From Leucosporidium creatinivorum (Eukaryota > Basidiomycota > Microbotryomycetes > Leucosporidiales > Leucosporidiaceae), in contig BCKL01000009.1 in assembly GCA_001600635.1 (NCBI GenBank), forward strand, positions 248,001 through 312,000: a DNA stretch of 64,000 nucleotides, written 5' to 3'. Under the pieces are notes generated by a model that was not told the origin of the DNA, ran no database searches, and saw only the letters and a program-made list of their open reading frames with translations. This document shows, one piece after another, positions 16,379 through 31,345 of this stretch (positions are counted from its first letter, which is position 1; each line of letters opens with the position of its first letter). The position numbers and the translations under genes were made by a program.

Positions 16379-17166
16379 TCAGCCAGCGAACGCCGAGCGC
16401 CGAGATGTCAAGTTAGTCGACGACATAAAAGCGTCACGCACATGGTGGGAGTCTCGAGCGGCCAGAAGTGTCTGCAGTCGATTTACTAGCTCAGTCAAGG
16501 TCTCGAAAAGGTGTTTGTGAGGCCGACACACCTTTGCTCGCTCCCAAGCTGTGGTGTCGTGCGTGGACCAATCCCTCCAACCGACGAAGAGCTTCCAATC
16601 TACCTCCCCAACGGTTCCACAGGCCTCGAGCATGTTCAATACCGTTAGTTCGACTACGTGGGATGCCTGGCTGTTGCTGCGTTTCGAGAACAGCAGCTGG
16701 AGTAAGCACCGAATCTGGGTCAGCGATGGGGTGGCCCGACCAAGGGTATGAGAAGGGGAGGCTTACAGTCATGACTGGATACACATTGCTGATGTCTAGC
16801 ACCGTTTTGCTCCAGGCTGTGAGCAACCTTCCTTCCTCGCCCGGCTCCAACACTGAGTGGCCGGGGAGGTGGAGCTCCCACCGGTGGATGCTGACGCGCG
16901 TGGATCTTGGCGAGCAGGACCTCATTGCGCTTGAGTAGCACCCTAGCAGTATCACAGCTGTGGCGCTCGAGGCTTGTTGGGCGCAGGGCGTTCTGAGGAG
17001 GAAAGAGAAGTCGCTCCGAATCGCCGAGCCACTGCTGAGCGAGCCTGACGCCCGTCTCGAGCAATGATGTGGCGACGTCTTCGGAGAAGGGTCGTTTGGG
17101 AAGGGGGTACGCCTCTGCTACTGTCTTGGAATCGAAAGCGGCGAAGACCTCTTCGAGAGACACCAT
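16379..17166 (-). CDS. Hypothetical protein, apparent +1 frameshift in first exon
   Basis: The frame opens MVSLEEVFAAFDSKTVAEAY and reads well to VLLKRNEVLLAKIHA. There the protein-like reading moves to the next frame (VSIHRWELHLPGHSVLEPG, then TAWSKTVLDISNVYPVMT), with no GT-AG intron that joins the two. A normal intron follows (GTAAGC to TACTCCAG with GCTGACC, about 16767-16698). The last exon reads LLFSKRSNSQASHVVEL, then VDWKLFVGWRDWSTHDTTAW, and ends in a stop at 16379. No family recognised. The shift may be a base-call error, a young pseudogene or a missed intron. About 235 residues if the frames are continuous. Confidence 0.45.
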
Positions 17167-17575
17167 GGCGCCGAAGCCGCGACCCTTTCAACGATAGGCG
17201 GGGACGACAGCGGCAGCTAGTTGTGAAGCAGAGAAGGAAGCACAAGGATACCGCAGGAATCTCGTCTTCTGCTTCCCCGCGAGGGGCAGGGACTCAGCGG
17301 GGCGAGAGCTAGAGGGGGCGGACGAGTCCGTCGGCGATGGCAGTGCGCGAGCTGTACCTCGCTAAGAGAGCAGGAAGTTGACTTTGAGACCTGTAGGGAA
17401 TGCACCGATCAACTCCAGATAGCAAGCAAGATGTAGTCGAAGCTCAAGCCAACTTCGAGGAGCGAGCCGTTTCGCCTCGCTCCCTCCGCTCATCACCTCG
17501 TCTTCTCAGCTTTCGACTCGCTTCGCTACAGCAGGACGATCGGGAGAAAGCCCGACGCTCTGCGTATCGACCAAC
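17167..17575. other. Intergenic, divergent promoter
   Basis: About 410 bp between the leftward hypothetical gene and the rightward F-box-like gene. No TATA box or repeat noticed; short open frames here show no coding character. Confidence 0.45.
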
Positions 17576-19274
17576 ATGACCACCGTTCTCGTGACTCGGC
17601 TCAAGGGAGCGTTGACGACGCTTTGGACGCAGCTGGACGTGGAGCAGGGCTGCTTGCCGTCACACAGCTGTACGTGGTTGCTCAGCGAGTTGAGGCTGCT
17701 GCAAGGTATCCAAGTGCCCGCTGGCTATGCTTCGGTGAGCTTTACCAGTGTGCAGAAGGGCGCTCGCTTCTCGCTGACCCTTGTGCTCGCTGCAGAGCTC
17801 TCGCCCTTTGATGGAAGCTATCAACATGCTGCAAGCGGTCAACACCTCTCTTACACTCTCGCTCCCCACTTCCAGCGTCCCCGCTCTCTCCTCGTTCTTC
17901 GCTCAAGCTATCGCCCTCCTCGTCGCTCCCCTCCCTCTTTCGAATGATCCCGAGTCCACGCGCGCTACGCTCCCCTCCGAGGTCATCTCCCTCATCCTTC
18001 ACCAGCTTGCCGCCGACGAAACGGCAATCTTTCACCAGCTCGACCCGGAAGAACCGGCACCCAAGAGCGACCTCATTAACTGCTGCCTCGCTTCGAGGAG
18101 CTTCCTACCTCTGGCCCGAGAAGCGCGTTACCACACGCTACACCTCAGGATCCAGGACCAGTTTGAGATGGAGGACGGAGAGCCGAAGGATCACATGGAT
18201 AGCGCAAGGCGTGAATCCGACGTCGCCATCAACTACGGACGACTCGCTCGAACGCTTCGGAGCTCGCCTCACCTTAGCTGCCTAGTTCGCCACGTCAAGC
18301 TTGCGTTCTGCGCCATGGGCCATGGATCCGGTCATGTTGAAGCTCTAGACGTTCTTTTGGTCTTGCTGGAGAATTGCCACGTCCAGCGCATCGAGTTGCT
18401 ATACGCCACTTCCGCGGAGGCGGTACGCTCCCTTCTTATGCTGTGGCAGACTGGGCAGCGGTTCGTCGCCCTTCACCTCGACCTCATTCACCTCGACCGC
18501 GAATGCCAGGACGACTTCACCGCCGGACTTACTCGACTTCTTCGAGAGCAGGACGAACTACTGAAGTCCTTCTCGCTCAACGTCGCCGACCTTCCCGACT
18601 ACCCTTTTCAATTCGAGCTCGAGCACCTCCAACTCAGAAGCAGCTATCTCACCTATACCACTGTGTTTAACTTCGAAGCCTTCACCCAGCACTCTTCCGC
18701 AACCCTTACTCGCCTATCGGTGCCGCTCAACCTGTCCGCCGAGACTTACCTCGCTCCCGCACTTTCACGCTTTCACAAGCTCCAAGCGCTGAGCCTGTCG
18801 TTTGAGCACCAGAAGCTTCCTTCCAAGTCGGAGGATGCCGAAGAGCAGGACCGCTGCAGTGAGATCTTCGGTAACCTCCCGCCAAGCCTGCAGTTGGTCA
18901 CCTTGAAAGGCTACCATGTCGTCCCAACGGTCATTCCTCTGAATCGACTCCCTCACACCCTTCTCGCGCTCGACACCCGCTCCATCCACTTCTCACCCTT
19001 GACCCTCCTCGCTTACGTTGGGTCGCCATCGCTCGAGCTTCGCCGACTTCGATACTTCGACGGACTCGGGTATGTCCAAGACGCCGAATGGAACGATGTG
19101 AGTCGCCCTGGGTTCCTCTCGGTGCTGGACCAGCGGGGGATTGTCGGCGATGGCGGAGAGTCCTGTGCGCTTCGTTGCTCCTTCTACCGCGACGCCTGTT
19201 ACGCTGAACTGACCCCGGTTCGACTCGCAGAGACCGGTACCCATCTTCGCCTCCAGCTATCGTGTGCTTTGTGA
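17576..19274 (+). CDS. F-box-like protein
   Basis: Exon 1 17576-17734 and exon 2 17796-19274 join in phase 0 (GTGAGC to CGCTGCAG with GCTGACC), giving 545 residues. An F-box-like motif, TLPSEVISLILHQLAAD, with a following CCLASRSFLPLAREARYHTL, fits substrate-receptor subunits of SCF ubiquitin ligases. The rest is leucine-rich and repeat-like (LQLRSSYL, LTRLSVPLNLS, LQALSLSFEHQKL), suggesting an LRR-like target-binding domain. An alternative intron at 19098-19230 (GTGAGT to CTCGCAG with CTGACCCC) would replace the last 59 residues with another tail extending past 19274; the sequence alone does not decide. Substrate unknown. Confidence 0.65.
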
Positions 19275-19528
19275 AGCCATGTCGACTGGAGGAAGCTGCT
19301 CGGCGACGTCGAGTCCGGCACCGACAGAGGGAAGCTTGAGACGAGGAGGAGTCGTGTTGATCTGTGCTCAGCGTTCAGTGCTTCTAAGCTTTCAATCATT
19401 GTTTTTCGTCACATCGAGCCGAACAAGAAACCAGGAGAGAGACCGACAGCGAAGCAGAGAGGTGCAAGTCTTCTCGCCGAGCACGGCTCAAGCTGACGTC
19501 TCATGCCCACCCCCCCGCTCCCGGTCAC
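19275..19528. other. Spacer between F-box-like gene and inverted repeat arm
   Basis: About 250 bp without recognisable coding signal, except for the alternative F-box-protein tail described in that entry. It includes a C8-like run near 19510. Homology with the intact ATP-citrate lyase gene begins at about 19529. Confidence 0.4.
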
Positions 19529-20612
19529 CACTTACACCTCTTCTATCACCTCTCATTCGCATCTGCTCACCTACAGTCGCCGTCGTGAGTACTCTTCCCG
19601 CTCGAAGCGACTCGAGAGCCGAAGCTGACTTCGCCGCTTCCTCCTTCTCCTCTTCCTCCTACTTCTCCTGCTTCACCAAAACAACAGTCCTTCGTTGATC
19701 TCCTCCGCTCGTCTGGAGCCTTCACTCGCGAGGAGGCTGACGAGTACATGACCGTGAGTCGTCTCGAGCGAGCTTCTCGGCGAGGGCTTCGGCGCTGACC
19801 CGTCCCTTCCCAATAGATTGGAACCCTCAACGGTCTCTTTGTTCTCGGTCGCTCCATTGGATTCATTGGTGAGTGTTTGCCGTCGTTTGTCGCCGTTGAG
19901 CGCCGTTCAGAGCCCGTCGTCGCCGTCGTTCGGTCGCTGACCTTCGCCGAACCCTCTTTCTCGCTCGTTCTACTAGGTCACCACCTCGACCAGAAGCGCC
20001 TCAAGCAGCCGTTGTATCGACACCCCTCCGACGATATCCACATCGAGGCGTACGTGTACTCTCTTGTGCATTTTCGGCGCCCGTAGAGCTGACCGAGCCT
20101 CCCCGCCGAGCAGCTTCGACATGGCCCGTGTCCTCGTCTCGGAGCGCAAGTAGTCGCAGCAGGGTCGCAAAACTCATCGTTCACCAGGTCTTCTCTAGCT
20201 TTCTCTCTTCTTCGCTCTCTCTCTTTCCGTTCCCTCGTCATTCGTGCCCATGAATTAGATTCCAGTCCTTTCGGTCTCCACACTCGGTCGTCTTTTCGAG
20301 AGTCGCAAAGGGTCAGAGCAGGCGATAGTACAACGAGAGGAGAGCGCTAGCCGATTCTTGTAGTCGAGTACACCGCCATCAGAGCACACCAGCTCGCTGA
20401 GTCTTTCCGCTCGGCGCTTATAGCAAGCTTGCCTCGCTCCGTCGCGACGCCCTGTGAATGCTCATGTACATCGACAGTTGGCTTAGAGCCACGCTTGAGA
20501 TGCTCTCGCACTCCGTAGCTCGCGTTCTTGGCTTACAGAGCGGCGCCTGGTTCCCGAGCCCTCCGCCAAGGCTGCTCCTCGCTTCTCTTCGAATCACTTG
20601 CTCAGTCACAAG
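19529..20612 (+). repeat. Inverted repeat A, left arm (ATP-citrate lyase 3' end copy)
   Basis: 19529-20318 reads as identical, in reverse complement and without indels, to 26657-25868; paired positions sum to 46186. This includes introns. From 20319 to about 20612 the match continues at roughly 85% by eye, with indels, against 25867-25567. The identical core covers the end of one intron, the last exons and a little past the stop of the lyase gene. Confidence 0.9.
19577..20153 (+). pseudogene. ATP-citrate lyase 3' fragment (last exons only)
   Basis: Exons correspond to the extreme C terminus of ATP-citrate lyase: an 8-nt microexon 19577-19584, 19688-19753 ([20 protein letters not shown]), 19817-19868 ([17 protein letters not shown]), the exon after the acceptor at about 19978 ([19 protein letters not shown]) and a short last exon ending SERK with stop TAG at 20151. 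No upstream lyase exons precede it, so it has no start and lacks all catalytic parts. Its splice sites and frame are intact and the DNA matches the live gene exactly. It is either a very young duplicate or is kept identical by gene conversion. It might also be read as part of a transcript from the F-box gene side, but no joint was found. Confidence 0.85.
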
Positions 20613-21041
20613 ATAGCTAAGCGTATACGTAGAAACGCAAGGATCGCGAGCTCACGCCATCGTCTCGTCAACGGCTCCCGCTGTCGCCCGTCAACGTCGC
20701 TCGTATGATATGCTCGGCGCTTGGCTTTTGCACGCCATCTCGCTTGCTCGTGAGCCTGCAGACTCGCCGAGGCTTCGTAGGGCGGCACAGCGAGAGGCAA
20801 ACGACATCCAGACCCTGGCTCTTCGCACGGGAGATCAAAGATGGCCTCGTGCATCATCGTGAGCAGCTGAAGCGCCGAGGGCTCGCCGACTGAGGTCAAG
20901 AGTCTTGTTCGCGAGGCTCCACATCTCTCAGGACGCCCGTTGTTGCACGAAAGAGCGAGTTGCAAACGACTGGGGGGTAAGAAAAAGACTAAAGCTACAC
21001 TAAGACGACGAGGAGGGGACAAGGGGCAGCCCTCGGGGCGC
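20613..21041. other. Intergenic, 3' of the desaturase
   Basis: About 430 bp between the repeat arm and the desaturase stop codon. It presumably contains the desaturase 3' UTR and polyadenylation signals. No coding or repeat signal seen. Confidence 0.45.
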
Positions 21042-23341
21042 TCAAGAGCAGTAGGCCTGGCTCAAACCACCAGTGAGGATGAGCTCATCGGTGCGAGGAG
21101 GGGCGGAAAGGGGTTGTAGAGGAAGCGACATGTGGGCGGGGTCTCCCTTGATCAAGACGGTCTTCCTGACGGCGGTGCTGAGGTCGGACTGCTTGCCGCC
21201 GACTCCAGAAGCGCCCGAGACCTTGAGGTCCTCGATGACTTGCGAGTACTTCTTCATCGCCTCGACTTCGTCTGCATGTGTTCAGAAAGGTCAGCGAGAG
21301 AACGATGAGACTGGGAAAGCTCGGCGAAACTCACAGCCGCCCTCAATGACTCCAACGCGGAGCTGAGCGAGGAGGTTGGTGGCTCCGTTCGAGTGGTCGT
21401 AGTATCTAGAGTCGAGAGAGAAGGTCAGCTCAAGCTCGAGAAGCGAGTCGCGAGGAAGAAGCTCACCCTCCGTAGAAAGCAGTGGTCGCATCCTTGCCGA
21501 GACGGGTCTTGATAAGGGCGCGTCCTCCGGGGTGCTCGTCGATGAAGGTGGAGACGTCGTGGATGAAGCCAGAGATGACGACGAGCTCGCGAGTCTTGCA
21601 CGCCTCTTGGACTGCAGAAAGAAGCGACGAAGGTCAGGTTGGGGCAACTTCAGGAACCGAGCGGGGACCGGCGACTCACATTCATCCCAAGTGAGGACAG
21701 GGAGGTCGTTGGAAGAGGTAGGCCACTTGATATCGTCGGACATCTGAGTGAGAGCCTTGAGCTTCATGGCGAACTGACCCTGCTTGATCTCATTGTCGGC
21801 TGTCGAAAGAGACGTCGTCAGCGAAGGTCCGAGTCGAGCAGCGCCGAAGCAACTCACGGAAGGTCTTGAGCTGCGAGGCGAGTCCGAGGCAGTACATCGA
21901 GAAGATGAACCACTTCGTGGGGTCGTACTGGTACCTGTAGAGTCGCAGAGTGTGAGCAAGCGCGGAGAGCTGCCCTGCTACGGCCGAGCTTACCACTTGA
22001 TGGCGTTGCGGAAATCCTGGGGGAACTCGTGATGCTGTAAGGTAAGAATGAAGGTCAGCGAGCGTTCGACGGGCGATGTCTTTTGCAGCGATGAGGCTCT
22101 TCGGCGCTCGAACCAACGCCGACCGACTCACGAAGTTGTGGTAACCCTCTCCGATGGTGACGAGGGCGGTGATGAAGTGGTCCTTGGGCGTGTGCTTGTC
22201 GTCGAAAGGCGTATGTCCGAGCCAGTGGGCAAGCGAGTTGACGCAGAAGGTCGAGTGGTGGACGAAGGCGAGACGAGCCGCTCCAGCGAAGAAGAAGCCT
22301 CCACGCCAATCACCCCATCCGAGACCAGCGACGACGGTGGGGAAGACGAAACCCATGCCGATGATCAAAGGGAGGTACCAGCGGTGCTGCCACTTGACGA
22401 CCTCGTTGTGGGACAAGTCCGAAACGTCGGCGACTCCGGGCTTGCGGCGGGGCTTGAGAATCATCCATCCGATATGAGCCCACAGGAAACCGCGCTGGGC
22501 CGAGTAAGGGTCGAGATCGGTGTCGGTGTAGCGGTGGTGAGCGCGGTGGCCGCGAGACCACCACTTGATGGACCCCTCGACGGCTCCCGAACCTCCGAGG
22601 GCGAGGAAGTACTGCAGGGGCTTGCTAGCGGTGTACGCCCTATGTGCCCAGAGGCGATGGTAGCCTGCCGTGATCCCTGTGGACGTGTAGGGACGTACAG
22701 GGGTGATTCGGGATGATTTGGGGGAGGGTTTTGGGGAGCGAGAAGGGCTTCGGTCAGCTTCGGCGATGACGTTCCGCCGCGAGAGGGCGAAAAAGAAGAC
22801 CGAAGGGCGGTCGAGTACAGCAAGGATAATGATAGGGAGGCAAGAAATATGTAGGGGAGCAAAAGGACTCACCTAGTCCAGTGTAGAAGTAGTAAGCGAC
22901 GGCCCAAGCGAGGGTCTTCCAGAGCACGGGGGTCGTGAAGGCTCCGTAGATGGCGAGGGCGGGGACGATGGTGAGGGCGAGAGTAGAGATGACCTCGATG
23001 TTCTGAGGAAGAGTGGACAGGGTGATGGGGGGCAGAGGGCGCTCCTTGGCGAGCACCTTGCGGACGTAGTTGTCGTCGGCGTAGCCATCATCCACGGCAG
23101 TAGTCTCTCCTTCTCCATCACTATCATCTCCTCCATCCGAGTCGGATGCCTCAGCCTCTCCGTAGTCTGTGATTTGAGCTCGTCGTCAGTTGCGGGCTCG
23201 TTGGTCGGCGGCGGCGAGGCTCGGAGATGAGCTAGGCTTACCGGGGAAGCGTTGACGGAGGGGTACAGCACTCTTGGTAGCAGTGGTACTAGCCTCGGGA
23301 CCGACAGCGTGCGGCAGCTTGGCCTCGAGGAGGGACGACAT
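21042..23341 (-). CDS. OLE1: Delta-9 fatty acid (stearoyl-CoA) desaturase with C-terminal cytochrome b5 domain
   Basis: A multi-exon gene starting [19 protein letters not shown]. It inserts the first double bond into palmitoyl- and stearoyl-CoA in the ER membrane. The three histidine boxes that bind the di-iron centre are present: [15 protein letters not shown] and, across an exon joint, [14 protein letters not shown]. Hydrophobic pairs flank them ([37 protein letters not shown]). The fused C-terminal cytochrome b5 domain has the heme motif [17 protein letters not shown], as in fungal Ole1. The N terminus is longer and more acidic than in S. cerevisiae ([13 protein letters not shown]). It ends at 21042 with LSQAYCS. 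Flanked by fragments of ATP-citrate lyase on both sides. Length about 530 residues. Confidence 0.93.
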
Positions 23342-24759
23342 TGTGGCGGTTTTGTCGAGCGGTTGGGGCGAAGAGGGGGAAGGGGAAGAGTGTGTGAGAG
23401 TAGGAGCGGAGGGAGTGTGGTAGAGGGGGAAGGGAGAAGCGGAAGGAGGGGTTGACAGAAGTGGAGAGAAGACAAGGAGCGGCGACGGCTTTCTCGCTTC
23501 TCCCCATGCCCTTCCCGATTCTCGCCCCCAACCAGCGCTCCCACTTCTTTACTCGTTCTTTACCCTTCCCCTGCATCCTGCAACTTGGTATGAATGTGAG
23601 AACGTCCCGCCAGAGTTTTCCGAGATTCCCTACTCACCTGCAGAAGCCCCAGCCCAATTTTCGCTCCTCGGGCTCGTCCAGCTTCGGCGAGAGAAATCGC
23701 CGACCGAGATCCTCTCCTACAGCCCTACAACAGCGAGGACATAATCTGTAGTTTAACAAATTCTTCGTCGAAGTACACCGGCGTCTTCCTACACCGATAC
23801 AAGACCGCAAGCGAGCGTCATCGAGCAAGTTCGAGAACGGCCGAAGATGATGTAGCTCTGCAACGGAGAGCGGGGTCGCCTACAGGGCTAGCAGGGTGAT
23901 GTACAGGGTTTGAAGAAGGCGAAGACCCGAAAGCGTTTGCATCCCCAGATGTAGGGAGGTAGCTGCAGCCCGATGCCGACTCGAGGTCGCCGAGCCCCGA
24001 GAGGACTCGCTTGGCCTACAGCGAACAGGTCACGATGGACGCTTCTTGTGCGCCGCTCGATAGACTGTAATCTCTGCATGTACCTGATCCCTGCATCGCC
24101 GAGAAATCACTCCTAAGTCTAGCGATAAGGATTCCCCGCCGAGCTGCAATGCTGCTCAAGGAGCAGCAGTTGGGTCGCTACAACGCCGCCTCGATCTTTC
24201 GCGTGTCCATATGACCCTCAAGAGCTTCACGCGACCATCTGCAGCTTACCTCAAGCTTCCCCTAGCCAACGCCGCGAAGAATGTGGAGACTTGGGCTCGG
24301 CGACGAGCAGCTGGCTGACGCGAGAGCAGAAAAGGACAAGAGCAGACCAAGGTTACGAGTACCTCCTAGCTGAGAAGTGTATCTCCCGCAGCGGCTCGCT
24401 TGTACAACAGCGCGGCTGTCACACAGGCCGAGCTGCAATCGCTCGTCAAGGGCGGCTCACTCAGTCCATGCCGTAGAGTTTTCAGCCAGTCGACTGCTCT
24501 CCATCCGCAATCGAGAAGCTGTGCACTGATGTGACCTGCTTCCCGCGAGCATCTAGCCTCAGTAAAACCGCCCATGTAGCGCTGCAGAACGATTTGAGAT
24601 GAAACGACGAGACAGCTTGGAGGTGTCTGGAGGCAAGCAGTTCGGCGTGAGCCGAAGAAAGAGGGATCCAGACCAGCTTTGGGGTGCATCCCGCGCTTGC
24701 TGGTGCTGTATGAGATGAGAAGGTGAAGAGGAGACGGAGGAAGAAGACGAGAGCTGGCC
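23342..24759. other. Intergenic, desaturase promoter side
   Basis: 1.4 kb between the desaturase start and the lyase 5' fragment. Open frames are short and conflicting on both strands, with no family signal. Purine/pyrimidine-biased tracts near 23370-23460 probably belong to the desaturase leader. Nothing else identified. Confidence 0.45.
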
Positions 24760-25420
24760 GAACTCGCAAAGGGCAGCTCTCGGTCGGTCTTCGCGGGTAG
24801 AGGGAGCAGGGCCAAAGCTGCTTGAGGTTGAGTAGGATGGCAATGCTGCTCAGCCGAGTCTGTAGCTGGGTTGGGTCGGTTGGGGAGCGTGCACGGTTCT
24901 GCTTTGAACGACTTGGGCGAGCGACTGCCTCAACGCTCTCTCTCTCCTTCCCTTCACTTCTCCGCCGCCCCTTCCCCTCCGCTCTTTCTCTCCCTTCTTC
25001 TCCCCCTTCTCCCCCTTTTACACACCTATACTAGACCAACATGGCATCCAAGGTAAGCGCTCGGCGCATCCTATAGCGTTACAACCGAGTCGTTTCGCTG
25101 ATCCCACGTCGCGCTCTCTTTCGCTCATCTTTCGCCGCTTCCTGCTTGCTTCTAACGCTGCCTGCCGCTCTGAAACTGTAGCCCGTGCGCGAGTTCGACG
25201 TAGGTGTCCTTCCCTAGGTCTCTGCAGCTCTTACAAGCGTGTACTGACGCCGTTTCGTCTCTCCCTTTCCCTCACCGCGCGCAGGCCAAGCTCCTCCTGG
25301 CTCACTACCTCTCGGCTGCTCCTCAACACGGCACCAAGTGCACCGTTCGTCCTGGATGGAAGGCTCCCGTCACCAAGGTCGCTCAGGCAAGTCTTATACC
25401 GTTCAACTGTACGCCAGCTG
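24760..25420 (+). repeat. Inverted repeat B, left arm (ATP-citrate lyase promoter and 5' end copy)
   Basis: This segment matches 31345-30690 in reverse complement: promoter with CT-rich leader, start codon, first exons and the first about 30 nt of the next intron. Identity is high but not perfect (substitutions and small indels visible in the promoter; His to Tyr in LLAHYLSAAP). Left of about 24760 and right of about 25420 the similarity fades. Confidence 0.85.
25041..25388 (+). pseudogene. ATP-citrate lyase 5' fragment (first three exons)
   Basis: It begins with ATG at 25041 (MASK, then GTAAGC), followed by the 18-nt exon PVREFD and exon AKLLLAHYLSAAP to [10 protein letters not shown]. The donor after this exon is GC (CAG/GCAAGT), where the intact gene has GT (CAG/GTGAGT). 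Homology to the lyase stops about 30 nt into that intron, and no further lyase exon follows. Translation would give about 44 lyase residues and then unrelated sequence. With its promoter copy it could still be transcribed. Most likely a decayed duplicate end. Confidence 0.85.
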
Positions 25421-25566
25421 GCGCGAGCTGTTCTCGCCGCTCGGGCGCCGTGCTCCTCCGAGTCGCTTTCCGACTTCCTGCGGGAGACGTGTATACCTGG
25501 GTAGACCATAGCGGCAGAGCCCCAGATACTGGTAGAACGCAGGTATTGATCGAGTCGCCTTGTCGC
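25421..25566. other. Unique spacer between repeat arms B and A
   Basis: About 150 bp that join the lyase 5' fragment to the downstream flank of the intact lyase gene. It matches neither arm and probably marks a rearrangement joint. No coding signal. Confidence 0.45.
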
Positions 25567-26657
25567 CTTATTAGCGAGCAAGCAACTCGAGGAGAAGCGA
25601 GGAGCAGTTCTCGGCGGAGGGCTCGGGAACCAGGCGCCGCTCTGTAAGCCAGGATCGCGAGCTACGGAGTGCGAGAGCATCTTGAGCGTCTCTGAGCCGA
25701 CTCTTGACGTACATGCGCATGCACGGGGCCTCACGAATACCTCACAGCGAGGCAAGCTTGCTCTGAGCGCCGAACGGAAAGACTCAGCGAGCTGGTGTGC
25801 CCTGACGGCGGATGCGTACTCGACTACAAGAATCGGCTAGCGCTCTCCTCTCGCTGTACTTTCGCCTCTCTGACCCTTTGCGACTCTCGAAAAGACGACC
25901 GAGTGTGGAGACCGAAAGGACTGGAATCTAATTCATGGGCACGAATGACGAGGGAACGGAAAGAGAGAGAGCGAAGAAGAGAGAAAGCTAGAGAAGACCT
26001 GGTGAACGATGAGTTTTGCGACCCTGCTGCGACTACTTGCGCTCCGAGACGAGGACACGGGCCATGTCGAAGCTGCTCGGCGGGGAGGCTCGGTCAGCTC
26101 TACGGGCGCCGAAAATGCACAAGAGAGTACACGTACGCCTCGATGTGGATATCGTCGGAGGGGTGTCGATACAACGGCTGCTTGAGGCGCTTCTGGTCGA
26201 GGTGGTGACCTAGTAGAACGAGCGAGAAAGAGGGTTCGGCGAAGGTCAGCGACCGAACGACGGCGACGACGGGCTCTGAACGGCGCTCAACGGCGACAAA
26301 CGACGGCAAACACTCACCAATGAATCCAATGGAGCGACCGAGAACAAAGAGACCGTTGAGGGTTCCAATCTATTGGGAAGGGACGGGTCAGCGCCGAAGC
26401 CCTCGCCGAGAAGCTCGCTCGAGACGACTCACGGTCATGTACTCGTCAGCCTCCTCGCGAGTGAAGGCTCCAGACGAGCGGAGGAGATCAACGAAGGACT
26501 GTTGTTTTGGTGAAGCAGGAGAAGTAGGAGGAAGAGGAGAAGGAGGAAGCGGCGAAGTCAGCTTCGGCTCTCGAGTCGCTTCGAGCGGGAAGAGTACTCA
26601 CGACGGCGACTGTAGGTGAGCAGATGCGAATGAGAGGTGATAGAAGAGGTGTAAGTG
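25567..26657 (-). repeat. Inverted repeat A, right arm (3' end of intact ATP-citrate lyase gene)
   Basis: Partner of 19529-20612. 25868-26657 reads as identical to the left arm; 25567-25867, beyond the lyase stop codon, is diverged. The sharp change from identity to about 85% a few hundred bases past the stop suggests a conversion-tract border. Confidence 0.9.
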
Positions 26658-29600
26658 ATGATGAGATGGAAGTAGAATGCGAGGGAGGGAGAACGAGAAG
26701 TCAGCTTTCTGCGCGCTCGCTCGCCGACCCCAAGTGAGACGAAACGCACTGGCTCCATCGACGTTGAGGATGAGGGTGTCCTTCTTGGCCGAAGTGACCT
26801 CCTCGGTGGCGAGGGCGTAGTCGAGGAACTCGGTCGAAGGGAAGTGCTTCTTAACGTAGGCGACGACGAGCGAGACACGAGCATCAGGGTTGGTCTTGGA
26901 CTTGATCTTGTGTCCAATACCGGGGATGAGCTTGTTGGCCTTGCGCATCGAGTCGACGAACTCGCGGGGAGTGAGTCCGAGGTCCTTGGCGCGCGAGAAC
27001 TCGGCGGCGGCTCCATCGAGAGCTCCTCCGAAGCGGGTTCCGATGGTGAGGAGTCCAGAGACGAGCGAGGAGACGAGGTCCTTGCCGGCACGGGTGGTGA
27101 TGACAGTGTTCATGGCTCCCGAGACGGCGGGTCCCTGTAAAAGCGAGTCGAGTTAGCGAGCGGTCGAGGAAAAGCGAGGGTGAAAAACGTACGTGGTCGG
27201 CGGTGAGCATGAGAACCATCTCGAGGAACTTGCCGGCGTAGTCGGGGAGACGACGCTTGAACCAGAGAAGGGAGAGGACTCCTCCGATTCCGATGTCCTC
27301 CTCGAAGACCTTCGAGATGGGCATTCCGGCGTAGAGGAGCTCCTGGCCACGCTCGTCCGAGATGGTGGAGATGAAGGCGGCGGGCTTGCGGACCATGCCG
27401 AGCTCCTGAGCCCACTTGTAGTCGATGGGGATCGAAGGAGGGTTTACCTCGGGCTTGGGGACGATGTCACCCGAAGCGACGAGCTTCTCGTAGGTCGACT
27501 TGAGCACCTCGGGGAGGTCCTCGAAGGTGGGGGGAACGATGAAGCCAGCGGCGCGCATGGCGTTGTTCTTGGCCTCGGCGGTCTCGAGGTCCGAGTTGGC
27601 CATGGATCCGGCGTGACCGAACTGAACGTCGGTGGCGAACATCTTGGCGCAGGTTCCGATGGCCCAAGCGACGATGGGCTTGGTGATCTGTCCCGACTTG
27701 ACGGCATCGATGACGCGGTACTCCTCGATACCACCGACCTCACCGAGGAGGACGAGCATCTTGCAGTTGGGGTCGGCCTCGTAGCGGAGAAGGTGGTCGA
27801 TGAACGAGGTTCCGGGGTAGCGGTCACCTCCGATGGCAACTCCCTCGTAGGTACCGTTGGTGGCTGTGGGAGTGAGAGTATGAGGTTAGCGACGGGAGCT
27901 CATCCGCTGAGGAAAGCTCGAGCCGAGACTCACTAAGCGAGAGGATGTTGTTGAGCTCGTTCGACATTCCTCCAGACTTGGAGACGTAGGCGACGGATCC
28001 GGCGCGGTAGAGCTTGGAGGAGAGGATGTTGTCCATCATTCTGCGAGCGAGTTTCGAGGTCAGCAAAAGTTCTCGGCAAAAGCGAAACAAGTCAAACTCA
28101 CCCTCCGGTGTTTCCGATCCTGAAGCATCCGGGCTTGATACCTCCAACGGTGGCGGGTCCGATGATCATGACGTTCTTGCGCTGAGCAGCCCAGAGGATC
28201 TCGCGAGCGTGGCGCTCGGGAACTCCCTCGGCGATGAGGGCGATGGCCTTGATGCTGGGGAATTCGAGGCACTCGAGGGTCGACTGGTAGACGGAACGCG
28301 ACGAGGCGAAGTTGACGACGACGTCGGCCTCGGGGCACTTGGCGATGGCATCGGCCATGGAAGCGAAGACGGGGAGGAGAGTCTCCTTGGTTCCCCAGTA
28401 GAACTTCTGGACGTGGTGGCCTCCGAAGGGGTAGATCATGGCGGCGACGGAAGGAGTCTTGCGACCGCAGGCGAAGTCGAAGTCGAGCATGCCCTGGATG
28501 GCGCGGGGCTGGAGTCCGTAGACGAGCGAGCGAGTGTGCTCGTCGAAGGGGCGGTACCAAGGGCGACCTCCCTCAGCGGCGACGTTGTCGAACGAGACGA
28601 TGCGGTCCTGGGGGTTCTCGCGCGAAGGAGCGGGAGCATCGGCGGGGAGAGCGGCGGACTTGGCCGAGGGGGAGGGAGGGGAGACGGGGGTGAGGGTGCC
28701 GGTGATGTCCTTAGGGGCCGAGTCGGCGAGGGTAGCGGCAGCCTTGGTGATTCCGAGTCCGAGGGGAACGATGGTGGTGATGTGGGACTCGGGGCCGAAG
28801 CTGAGGGGAGAGAGCGAGAGGTCAGCCTTGCGCTCTAGTTCGACGAAGCGAACGGCTCGACTTACACCTCGATGTGGACACCAAGAGTCTCTCCGAGGAG
28901 ACGCATGGCCTTGAGACCCTCCTGGTAGTTGGGTCCTCCACGACGAACGAAGATGCGGACCTTGTGCTCCTGGAGCTTGTGCTGGTACTCGCGAAGGGCG
29001 GTGATGATTCCCTTGAAGGTGGCGGCGACATTGGTGAAGTTGGCGATACCTCCACCGATGAAGAGGAGCTTGCCCTCGGCGTTGGGGGTGCCGCGGGTCA
29101 TGAGGTCGACTGAGGAAGACGAGGAAAGTCAGCTTCGGCTCTCGCGCGAGGAGGGAGGAATCGAGCGACTCACGGATGGTCTTGGCGTACTCGTAAGTCT
29201 GGCCCTGAGTAGGAGCTCCAGAGTACTCTCCGTAGTTGGCGAGCTCGTGAGCGAATCCGTGAGCGGCGATGGCGTCGCTGCGAGGGAAGGCCGAAAGTCA
29301 GCTCGCGCTCGCTCGGAGGCGAAGGCTCAGAAGCTCACGAGTAGACGACCGAAGCTCCTCCACCAGCAACCATGGTCCAGACACGTCCCTCAGCGTTGAG
29401 GACGGTAAGCTTGAGCGAAGCACCAGTCGACGAATCGAGCTTGGCGATGTACGCCTCCTCCTTGGTGAGGTCACGTCCGAAGCTGTTGGTGGGACGAGTT
29501 AGCTCTTTCTGTCGCTTATTATCGCTTCTGCAGCTACTCACGGAGGGGGCCAGACCATGCCGGGTCCACGGTCAGCAAGGATCTTGCCGGCAACGGGGGT

Positions 29601-31067
29601 GGCAGCCGAGGGGTTGTAGACGGAAGGGTCGCGAGCGATAGCCCACTTGGGGCCGACAATGAACTCGGCGGTCTATCGAGAAGAGAACGTTAGCAATCCG
29701 CTCTCGCAGAGTAAGCGAGATGTAGCTCACCTGGTCGAGCTTGGCGGCCATGTCAAGGTAGAAGATCTCGGTCTTGCCCTCGACCTCAACGGCGACGAGG
29801 GGGTTGATCTCGAGGTAGGCAAAGTGAAGGTCGACGTAGACCGAGTAGAGACGGGCAATGAAGTCGACGAGGGCCTCCTTGACCTCACCACCGGCGACAT
29901 CCTTGAGGAGACCGGCCTTGATGGCCTCGCGGTCGGGAAGCTCGCCTCCGACGGGGACGAGGAGCTGGATAGCCTTGGCGTCGACATCACCGACCTCGAC
30001 TCCTCCCTCGTGGGTGAAGAGGATGACATCTCCCTCGCGGACCGAGTTGATGCAGATGTAGAACTCGGAGTCGGAAGGGTGGGGAAGGAAAGGCTCGACG
30101 ATGAAGGTGTTGAGGGTACCGGTGGTCTTCTCGACCTGTGTAGTGAGGGAGAGCATCTCGTTAGCTACAGAGCGGAGATGGCGGAGCTGATTCTTTTCAC
30201 TTACGAGGACCTGCTTGCCGGCGCGCTCCTCAATCCACTTCCTGCCCTCGGACCACTCCTTGTTCAGGGCACTGCAAATTGATGAGGTACATCGTCAGCG
30301 AATGAGCGTGAACTCGGAACGCGATTCGCGCTATAGAGACGCACAGAAGTCCAGCCTTTCCACGACGCTTGATGAGCTGGTCGGGCTTGACGACGAGCTT
30401 CTCAGTGAAGACCCAGCCGGGGAGCGACGAGTCGGGGGTGAGGGCACCGGTAGCAGGGTCCCAGGAGACCTGAAGAGGTGAGGTTAATCGTTAGTGGACG
30501 AGCTCTGGAGCATGTTGGGGTGCGAAAGGCGGAGGCGCGATCCATCCCCATCTGTAGCTCGTTAATCAGATCCGTCTGGATGGAAATGCACATTGATAGC
30601 CGATCATCCATTAGATGTAGTGCGATCATGCTACATGTACCTCCGTCGCTCTTCGGCGCACAAGTTGCGTTGGGGGTCGCGTTGTCGCGCTGGCGTTGCA
30701 GTGCAGCGGCATAGAACTCACCTGAGCGACCTTGGTGACGGGAGCCTTCCATCCAGGACGAACGGTGCACTTGGTGCCGTGTTGAGGAGCAGCCGAGAGG
30801 TGGTGAGCCAGGAGGAGCTTGGCCTGCGCGCGGTGAGGGAAAGGGAGAGACGAAACGGCGTCAGTACACGCTTGTAAGAGCTGCAGAGACCTAGGGAAGG
30901 ACACCTACGTCGAACTCGCGCACGGGCTACAGTTTCAGAGCGGCAGGCAGCGTTAGAAGCAAGCAGGATGCGGCGAAAGATGAGCGAAAGAGAGCGGGAC
31001 GTGGAATCAGCGAAACGGCTCGGTTGTAACGCTATAGGATGCGCCGAGAGCTTACCTTGGATGCCAT
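26033..31067 (-). CDS. ACL1: ATP-citrate lyase, single-chain (animal-type fused) form
   Basis: A multi-exon gene (about 15 exons), start at 31067 (MASK), stop TAG at 26035-26033, about 1150 residues. It cleaves cytosolic citrate to acetyl-CoA and oxaloacetate. Domain order matches human ACLY: ATP-grasp/succinyl-CoA-synthetase-beta part ([36 protein letters not shown]), citrate-binding and CoA-binding parts ([30 protein letters not shown]), the catalytic phosphohistidine loop in [20 protein letters not shown], and the citrate-synthase-like C terminus ([46 protein letters not shown]). Unusually small exons: 12 nt (MASK), 18 nt (PVREFD) and 8 nt (26602-26609). Basidiomycetes keep one fused gene, while Pezizomycotina have two subunit genes. 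It is the supply step for lipid synthesis and lies beside the desaturase. Confidence 0.95.
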
Positions 31068-31345
31068 GTTGGTCTAGTGTAGGTGTGTATAAGGGAGAAG
31101 GGGGAGCAGAGGGGAGAGAAAGAGCGGAGGGGAAGGGGCGACGGAGAAGTGAAGGGAAGGAGAGAGAGAGCGTTGAGGCAGTCGCTCGCCCAAGTCGTTC
31201 AAAGCAGAACCGTGCACGCTCCCCAACCGAGCTACAGACTCGACCCGAGCAGCATTGTCATCCTACTAGACCTCAAAAAGCTTCGGCCCTGCTCCCTCTA
31301 CCCGCGAAGACCGACCGAGGGCACTTGCCCTTGCAGTCGGCGCGC
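30690..31345 (-). repeat. Inverted repeat B, right arm (promoter and 5' end of intact ATP-citrate lyase)
   Basis: Partner of 24760-25420; contains the working start (31067), the first three exons and the promoter of the intact gene. The CT-rich leader (reverse strand, about 31170-31085) is conserved in both arms. Confidence 0.85.
31085..31175 (-). promoter_or_regulatory. Pyrimidine-rich core promoter/leader of ATP-citrate lyase
   Basis: Read on the gene strand, this is a C/T run (CTCTCTCTCCTTCCCTTCAC, then CGCCCCTTCCCCTCCGC and CTCCCCCTTCTCCCTT) ending about 18 bp before the ATG. The same block sits before the fragment start at 25041. Such CT blocks mark strong promoters in basidiomycetes; no TATA box visible. 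Confidence 0.45.

Follow-up and report, generated by a model that had tools for sequence, protein, structure and literature searches.

Introduction

Gene conversion between adjacent inverted paralogues has been described for Caenorhabditis (PMC3966223), and the emerin region is cited among the human inversions that arise between inverted repeats (PMC3961182). In Ogataea polymorpha, mating type is switched by inverting the interval between inverted repeats (PMC4238957), and in Drosophila, staggered-break inversions leave inverted duplications of whole genes or of gene fragments at their breakpoints (PMC5080602). Here, a locus of Leucosporidium creatinivorum is considered in which an intact ATP-citrate lyase gene lies beside inverted copies of its own two ends; the window, the whole stretch of DNA analysed, comprises 64,000 nucleotides of contig C9. 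The genome is rich in introns and totals 27.7 Mb in 63 contigs; its size, the short introns, and the one-piece lyase would fit a basidiomycete-type fungus. A literature search of titles and abstract openings found no description of this lyase locus. What the present analysis adds is the conversion-like patchwork of the copies.

The ATP-citrate lyase gene

The lyase gene (Table 1) is a script gene model to which exon 2 was added by hand; all 18 introns start with GT and end with AG, and the stop codon lies at 26035-26033. Against the PDB, the 1150-aa model matched human ATP-citrate synthase chains (E = 0), with chain 9r90_A aligned to residues 62-1135 as one stretch, and a single protein covers both the synthetase and the citrate-synthase-like parts of human ACLY, as in the single-chain eukaryotic enzyme. 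The coding sequence of the present gene is intact, and the gene presumably works. The model includes an 8-nt micro-exon (window 26602-26609), which is identical in fragment A. Of 10 unspliced window frames, Pfam recognised two, one as a lyase exon and the other as an inositol polyphosphate kinase.

A search of the same genome with PF00285 (citrate-synthase family) gave eight scoring stretches; contig C7 has four of them, contig C21 three, and the remaining one lies at the lyase gene on C9. The C7 and C21 stretches are probably citrate synthases, and if they are taken as such, a second lyase gene was not seen by this search. Likewise, tblastn over 200 kb detected no trace of the middle part of another lyase; it gave only the gene, A, B, and four weak matches (E 0.56 to 5.9). 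Related loci numbered 12 in records titled archaea or bacteria (best-segment identity 53-61%), which are useless for fungal synteny, and none in viral contigs. One of these records, a contig titled Thermoplasmatales archaeon MAG (locus L037), holds a stretch resembling the lyase, with 61% identity to the query.

Layout of the fragments

Table 1. Features of the lyase locus and inverted pairs used for comparison. Positions are those of the window unless preceded by C9, which marks positions on the contig.
Feature	Position	Strand or orientation	Description
Intact single-chain ATP-citrate lyase	26033..31067	-	19 exons, 1150 aa; gene model
A	19525..20603	+	copy of lyase 3' end: last five exons, stop, ~450 bp downstream
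A'	25576..26661	-	intact lyase 3' end and downstream DNA; partner of A
B	24769..25418	+	copy of lyase 5' end: exons 1-3 with ATG 25041, preceded by 272 bp and followed by the first part of intron 3
B'	30689..31332	-	intact lyase 5' end and upstream DNA; partner of B
Spacer	25419..25575	.	157 bp, separates B from A'
Fatty-acid desaturase with C-terminal cytochrome b5 domain	21042..23341	-	script model; 3' end past ~21190 uncertain
A/A' pair	19525-20603 vs 26661-25576	inverted	1089 columns, 95.96% identity, E = 0; self-BLAST
B/B' pair	24769-25418 vs 31332-30689	inverted	655 columns, 93.13% identity, E = 0; self-BLAST
Similar pair	C9 171018-173314/181212-183500	inverted	L015-L016
Similar pair	C9 184299-185395/204887-205955	inverted	L016/L018
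Similar pair	C9 328593-329836/331434-332665	inverted	L030-L031

Self-BLAST of the window listed two repeat pairs, both inverted, which correspond to the repeats of ~0.65 kb (B/B') and ~1.1 kb (A/A') that an earlier note had described from the sequence alone. On the + strand the order is A (lyase 3' end, +), desaturase (-), B (lyase 5' end, +), the spacer, and the intact lyase as A'M'B' (-), M' being its middle; the order given in the earlier note therefore agrees with self-BLAST and the gene models. The gap between the arms is 5271 bp for B/B' and 4973 bp for A/A'. Searches of the whole genome (27.7 Mb) with A' and with B' each returned two places, both at the lyase locus; these counts are lower bounds, and a longer whole-locus query listed only the desaturase paralogue and missed these arms, so further diverged arm copies may exist.

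The five lyase exons carried by A are identical to those of the gene. B encodes MASK...KVAQ with one residue change, H to Y; its third intron starts with GC where the B' counterpart starts with GT, and past exon 3 its frame runs on for some distance before reaching a stop. B points at the 3' end of the intact lyase across the spacer. The desaturase model matched the Pfam families FA_desaturase and Cyt-b5, and its unspliced frame had no Pfam match. This desaturase has a diverged paralogue on the contig, ~105 kb further left (C9 163537-165859), with 74-79% DNA identity over the two longest matched stretches.

Whether homology extends past the arms was tested with 1000 shuffles per comparison. 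Neither intron 3 of B' nor the sequence on the right of A showed significant similarity to the spacer, the observed score being reached in 80/1000 shuffles for the former (with a stretch that starts at 25387, to the right of the B core) and in 224/1000 for the latter. The sequence left of B gave 787/1000, and four cross-comparisons of other flanks gave 82-578 of 1000. Left of A, near 19525, a weak resemblance was reached by 19/1000 shuffles. An Rfam search of the window gave no match.

Patchy identity between the arms

The differences between the arms, which amount to 44/1089 columns in A/A' and 45/655 in B/B', are unevenly placed. The longest exact A/A' run covers 790 nt (19529-20318), its first base being the start given in the earlier note; a 794-nt match reported at 100% by the repeat finder contains one mismatch near its left end. 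The homologous flank next to this run has 30 mismatches in 282 columns. When the difference columns were permuted, a run of this length was reached in 0/10,000 permutations (largest permuted run 321), a test that assumes independent columns, such that conserved exons alone may yield long runs. About 550 nt of the identical run are noncoding, and the probability of zero differences in these positions at the rate of the flank is near 10^-27 (computed with 555 positions, one edge mismatch included). The B/B' pair has a core with 13/503 differing columns and edges with 22/119 (promoter side) and 10/33 (intron side), gap columns counted, and its longest run of 166 was reached in 6/10,000 permutations (3/2000 in a second run). 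A thus shows the identical tract with noncoding DNA and diverged flanks that marks gene-converted inverted paralogues, and B shows it more weakly. The permutation result, the diverged flank, and the noncoding identity together are what would be expected if gene conversion had later homogenised the copies left by an old duplication. This patchy identity suggests sequence exchange between the arms, with conversion the probable cause of the identical patches.

As background, similar pairs were collected in 200 kb of the 27.7 Mb, all on one contig; 36 were found, of which the 21 with an aligned length >= 599 were tested and the 15 of <= 360 dropped. All five inverted pairs less than 20 kb apart, namely the two of the lyase locus and three others, had an excess of identical runs (122-790 nt; 0-3 of 2000 permutations), so patchy identity is not peculiar to the lyase locus. 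Among direct pairs less than 20 kb apart, one of three had an excess (run 88, 0/2000) and the other two gave 68/2000 and 179/2000. The 13 pairs more than 20 kb apart had runs of 17-56, three of them at 0-1 of 2000 (runs 41-56) and five at 25-32 of 2000. The comparison pairs are unannotated, and their excess runs could stem from exon conservation; local gene conversion is possibly common in this genome. In the three other inverted pairs (Table 1), identical runs span 122-155 bp and other 100-column blocks fall to 53-65% (end blocks excluded). The contig also carries a dispersed local family of similar stretches in both orientations over ~110 kb (window ~16526-19061 and C9 near 154, 174, 186, 206, and 234 kb), and the window ORF at 17781-19274 (+) had no Pfam match.

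Origin of the interleaved order

A lost ancestral tandem copy, named in the earlier note as the simplest origin, would not alone yield the order A, B, A', B', and at least one inversion would also be needed. With the desaturase included, this order would require a partial direct duplication and one inversion duplicating one end, in either order. A single staggered-break inversion was also tried and rejected, as it would put A beside B, and the two are 4.2 kb apart with the desaturase between them; the inverted duplicates do not adjoin at each breakpoint of one segment, and a second event is required. Circular DNA and template switching were among the origins considered.

Predicted products of exchange

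Self-BLAST places homologous inverted repeats around the interval, the arrangement on which inverted-repeat-mediated inversion acts; inversion at the lyase locus itself is hypothetical. The earlier note had proposed that B/B' exchange would yield an intact lyase on the other strand with a full promoter, and that each orientation would keep the gene and change its neighbours. An in-silico exchange at 25200 in the B core placed the lyase on the other strand with all 1150 residues identical, and head-to-head with the desaturase at 1.7 kb (1700 bp) between the start codons; coding integrity and a new neighbour are thus borne out for this one isomer, but a full promoter is not, as B matches B' over no more than 272 bp ahead of the ATG. 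If the exchange fell farther along the gene, beyond the changed codon of B, it would carry the H-to-Y change, and since intron 3 of B has a GC donor where B' has GT, an exchange that keeps the GT donor must fall upstream of it. An A/A' exchange within the identical run would flip the desaturase and B and leave the lyase unchanged. By the same reasoning, either orientation would leave a spare lyase 5' end pointing at the gene's 3' end.

Interpretation

The reading that we consider reasonably probable is one working lyase with two old inverted end copies, kept similar by gene conversion, with a flip possible. A local duplication and at least one rearrangement would have left the two inverted partial copies, and gene conversion between the inverted arms would keep them similar to the lyase gene, with a conversion tract that may be recent in A/A' and older and less complete in B/B'. 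A crossover in such exchanges would invert the 5-kb interval with an intact lyase in both products, and inversion would then be an occasional by-product without a dedicated function. Against this reading, work cited in the Caenorhabditis review has conversion likelier between same-orientation paralogues (PMC3966223), and a human study cited in the same review saw no proximity effect once controlled (PMC3966223). A recent re-duplication of the A stretch, or reads of A' assembled into A, would also give the same identity.

The re-duplication would make the locus the product of two separate duplications, an old one seen in the diverged flank and a recent inverse re-copy of ~790 bp of the 3' end. 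The sharp end of A identity near 19525, with its weak resemblance further left (19/1000 shuffles), agrees with such a history, but the recent copy must land exactly beside the older co-linear homologous flank (20319-20603), where conversion needs one step, and we hold this history to be very improbable. The misassembly of reads belongs to a wider possibility of artefact, in which the fragments are wrongly placed or a consensus collapse accounts for the 790-nt identity: short reads have difficulty with inverted copies ~5 kb from each other that are identical over this length, and beyond the window the 200-kb stretch of the contig contains four single N letters. The window itself is without N, and the columns that differ in both pairs (45/655 and 44/1089) indicate that the copies are distinct sequences, which leaves an artefact quite improbable.

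A further possibility is that the locus has flipped repeatedly, by B/B' or A/A' crossovers, with both orientations segregating among strains. The arms, of 0.65 and 1.1 kb, are separated by 5271 and 4973 bp, their identical patches suggest exchange, and the protein is kept in the in-silico B/B' product; in human, of 22 inversions predicted between inverted repeats of 1.6-24 kb, 17 could be validated, many of them apparently recurrent (PMC3961182). The arms here are shorter than in the human cases, a crossover is not required for conversion, the assembly holds one orientation, and no further arm copy was found (lower-bound counts), and we consider recurrent inversion unlikely. A flip could in addition serve as a regulatory switch, moving the lyase from its present upstream region to a position head-to-head with the desaturase and changing the co-expression of two lipid-synthesis genes. 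The 1.7 kb between the two start codons of the in-silico isomer would suit such a switch, and O. polymorpha offers an example of switching by inversion (PMC4238957), but patchy inverted paralogues elsewhere nearby make a special role unneeded, and the switch is scarcely credible. Little better can be said for a self-preserving flip locus in core metabolism, a highly improbable case in which the interleaved end fragments would allow the lyase to change strands undamaged, alternating between a separate gene and one half of a divergent pair with the desaturase, and the spare 5' end could make antisense RNA in either orientation.

We take the locus for an unexceptional local inverted duplication that is probably subject to gene conversion and could flip without harm. 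It would show in compact form how partial inverted copies next to a gene can in nature be kept similar to it and yet be harmless, the latter because the fragments hold both gene ends. It also carries a caution, in that identity between arms suggests exchange and does not demonstrate inversion. Both orientations among strains, if found, would test the effects of position and divergent pairing on the expression of lipid-synthesis genes.

Comparison with known systems

The hsp16 modules of C. elegans resemble the lyase locus in their adjacent inverted copies with highly similar tracts (PMC3966223), and for other C. elegans genes the same review reports conversion tracts that extend into introns (PMC3966223). 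The partners at the lyase locus differ in being an intact gene and two partial end copies, which are interleaved. The human inverted-repeat inversions share with it the inverted arms around an invertible interval (PMC3961182), but both orientations are observed there (PMC3961182), whereas the lyase locus is seen in one assembly and has shorter arms. In Ogataea (Hansenula) polymorpha, inverted repeats likewise flank a chromosomal interval in a fungus (PMC4238957); the mating-type inversion is observed, is induced by nutrient limitation, and alters expression, with repeats of >2 kb (PMC4238957), whereas the lyase locus is known from the sequence of one assembly. The interleaved lyase order finally resembles the product of the Drosophila staggered-break inversions, with their inverted duplicates of genes or gene fragments (PMC5080602), but with A and B 4.2 kb apart and the desaturase between them, one such event would be insufficient.
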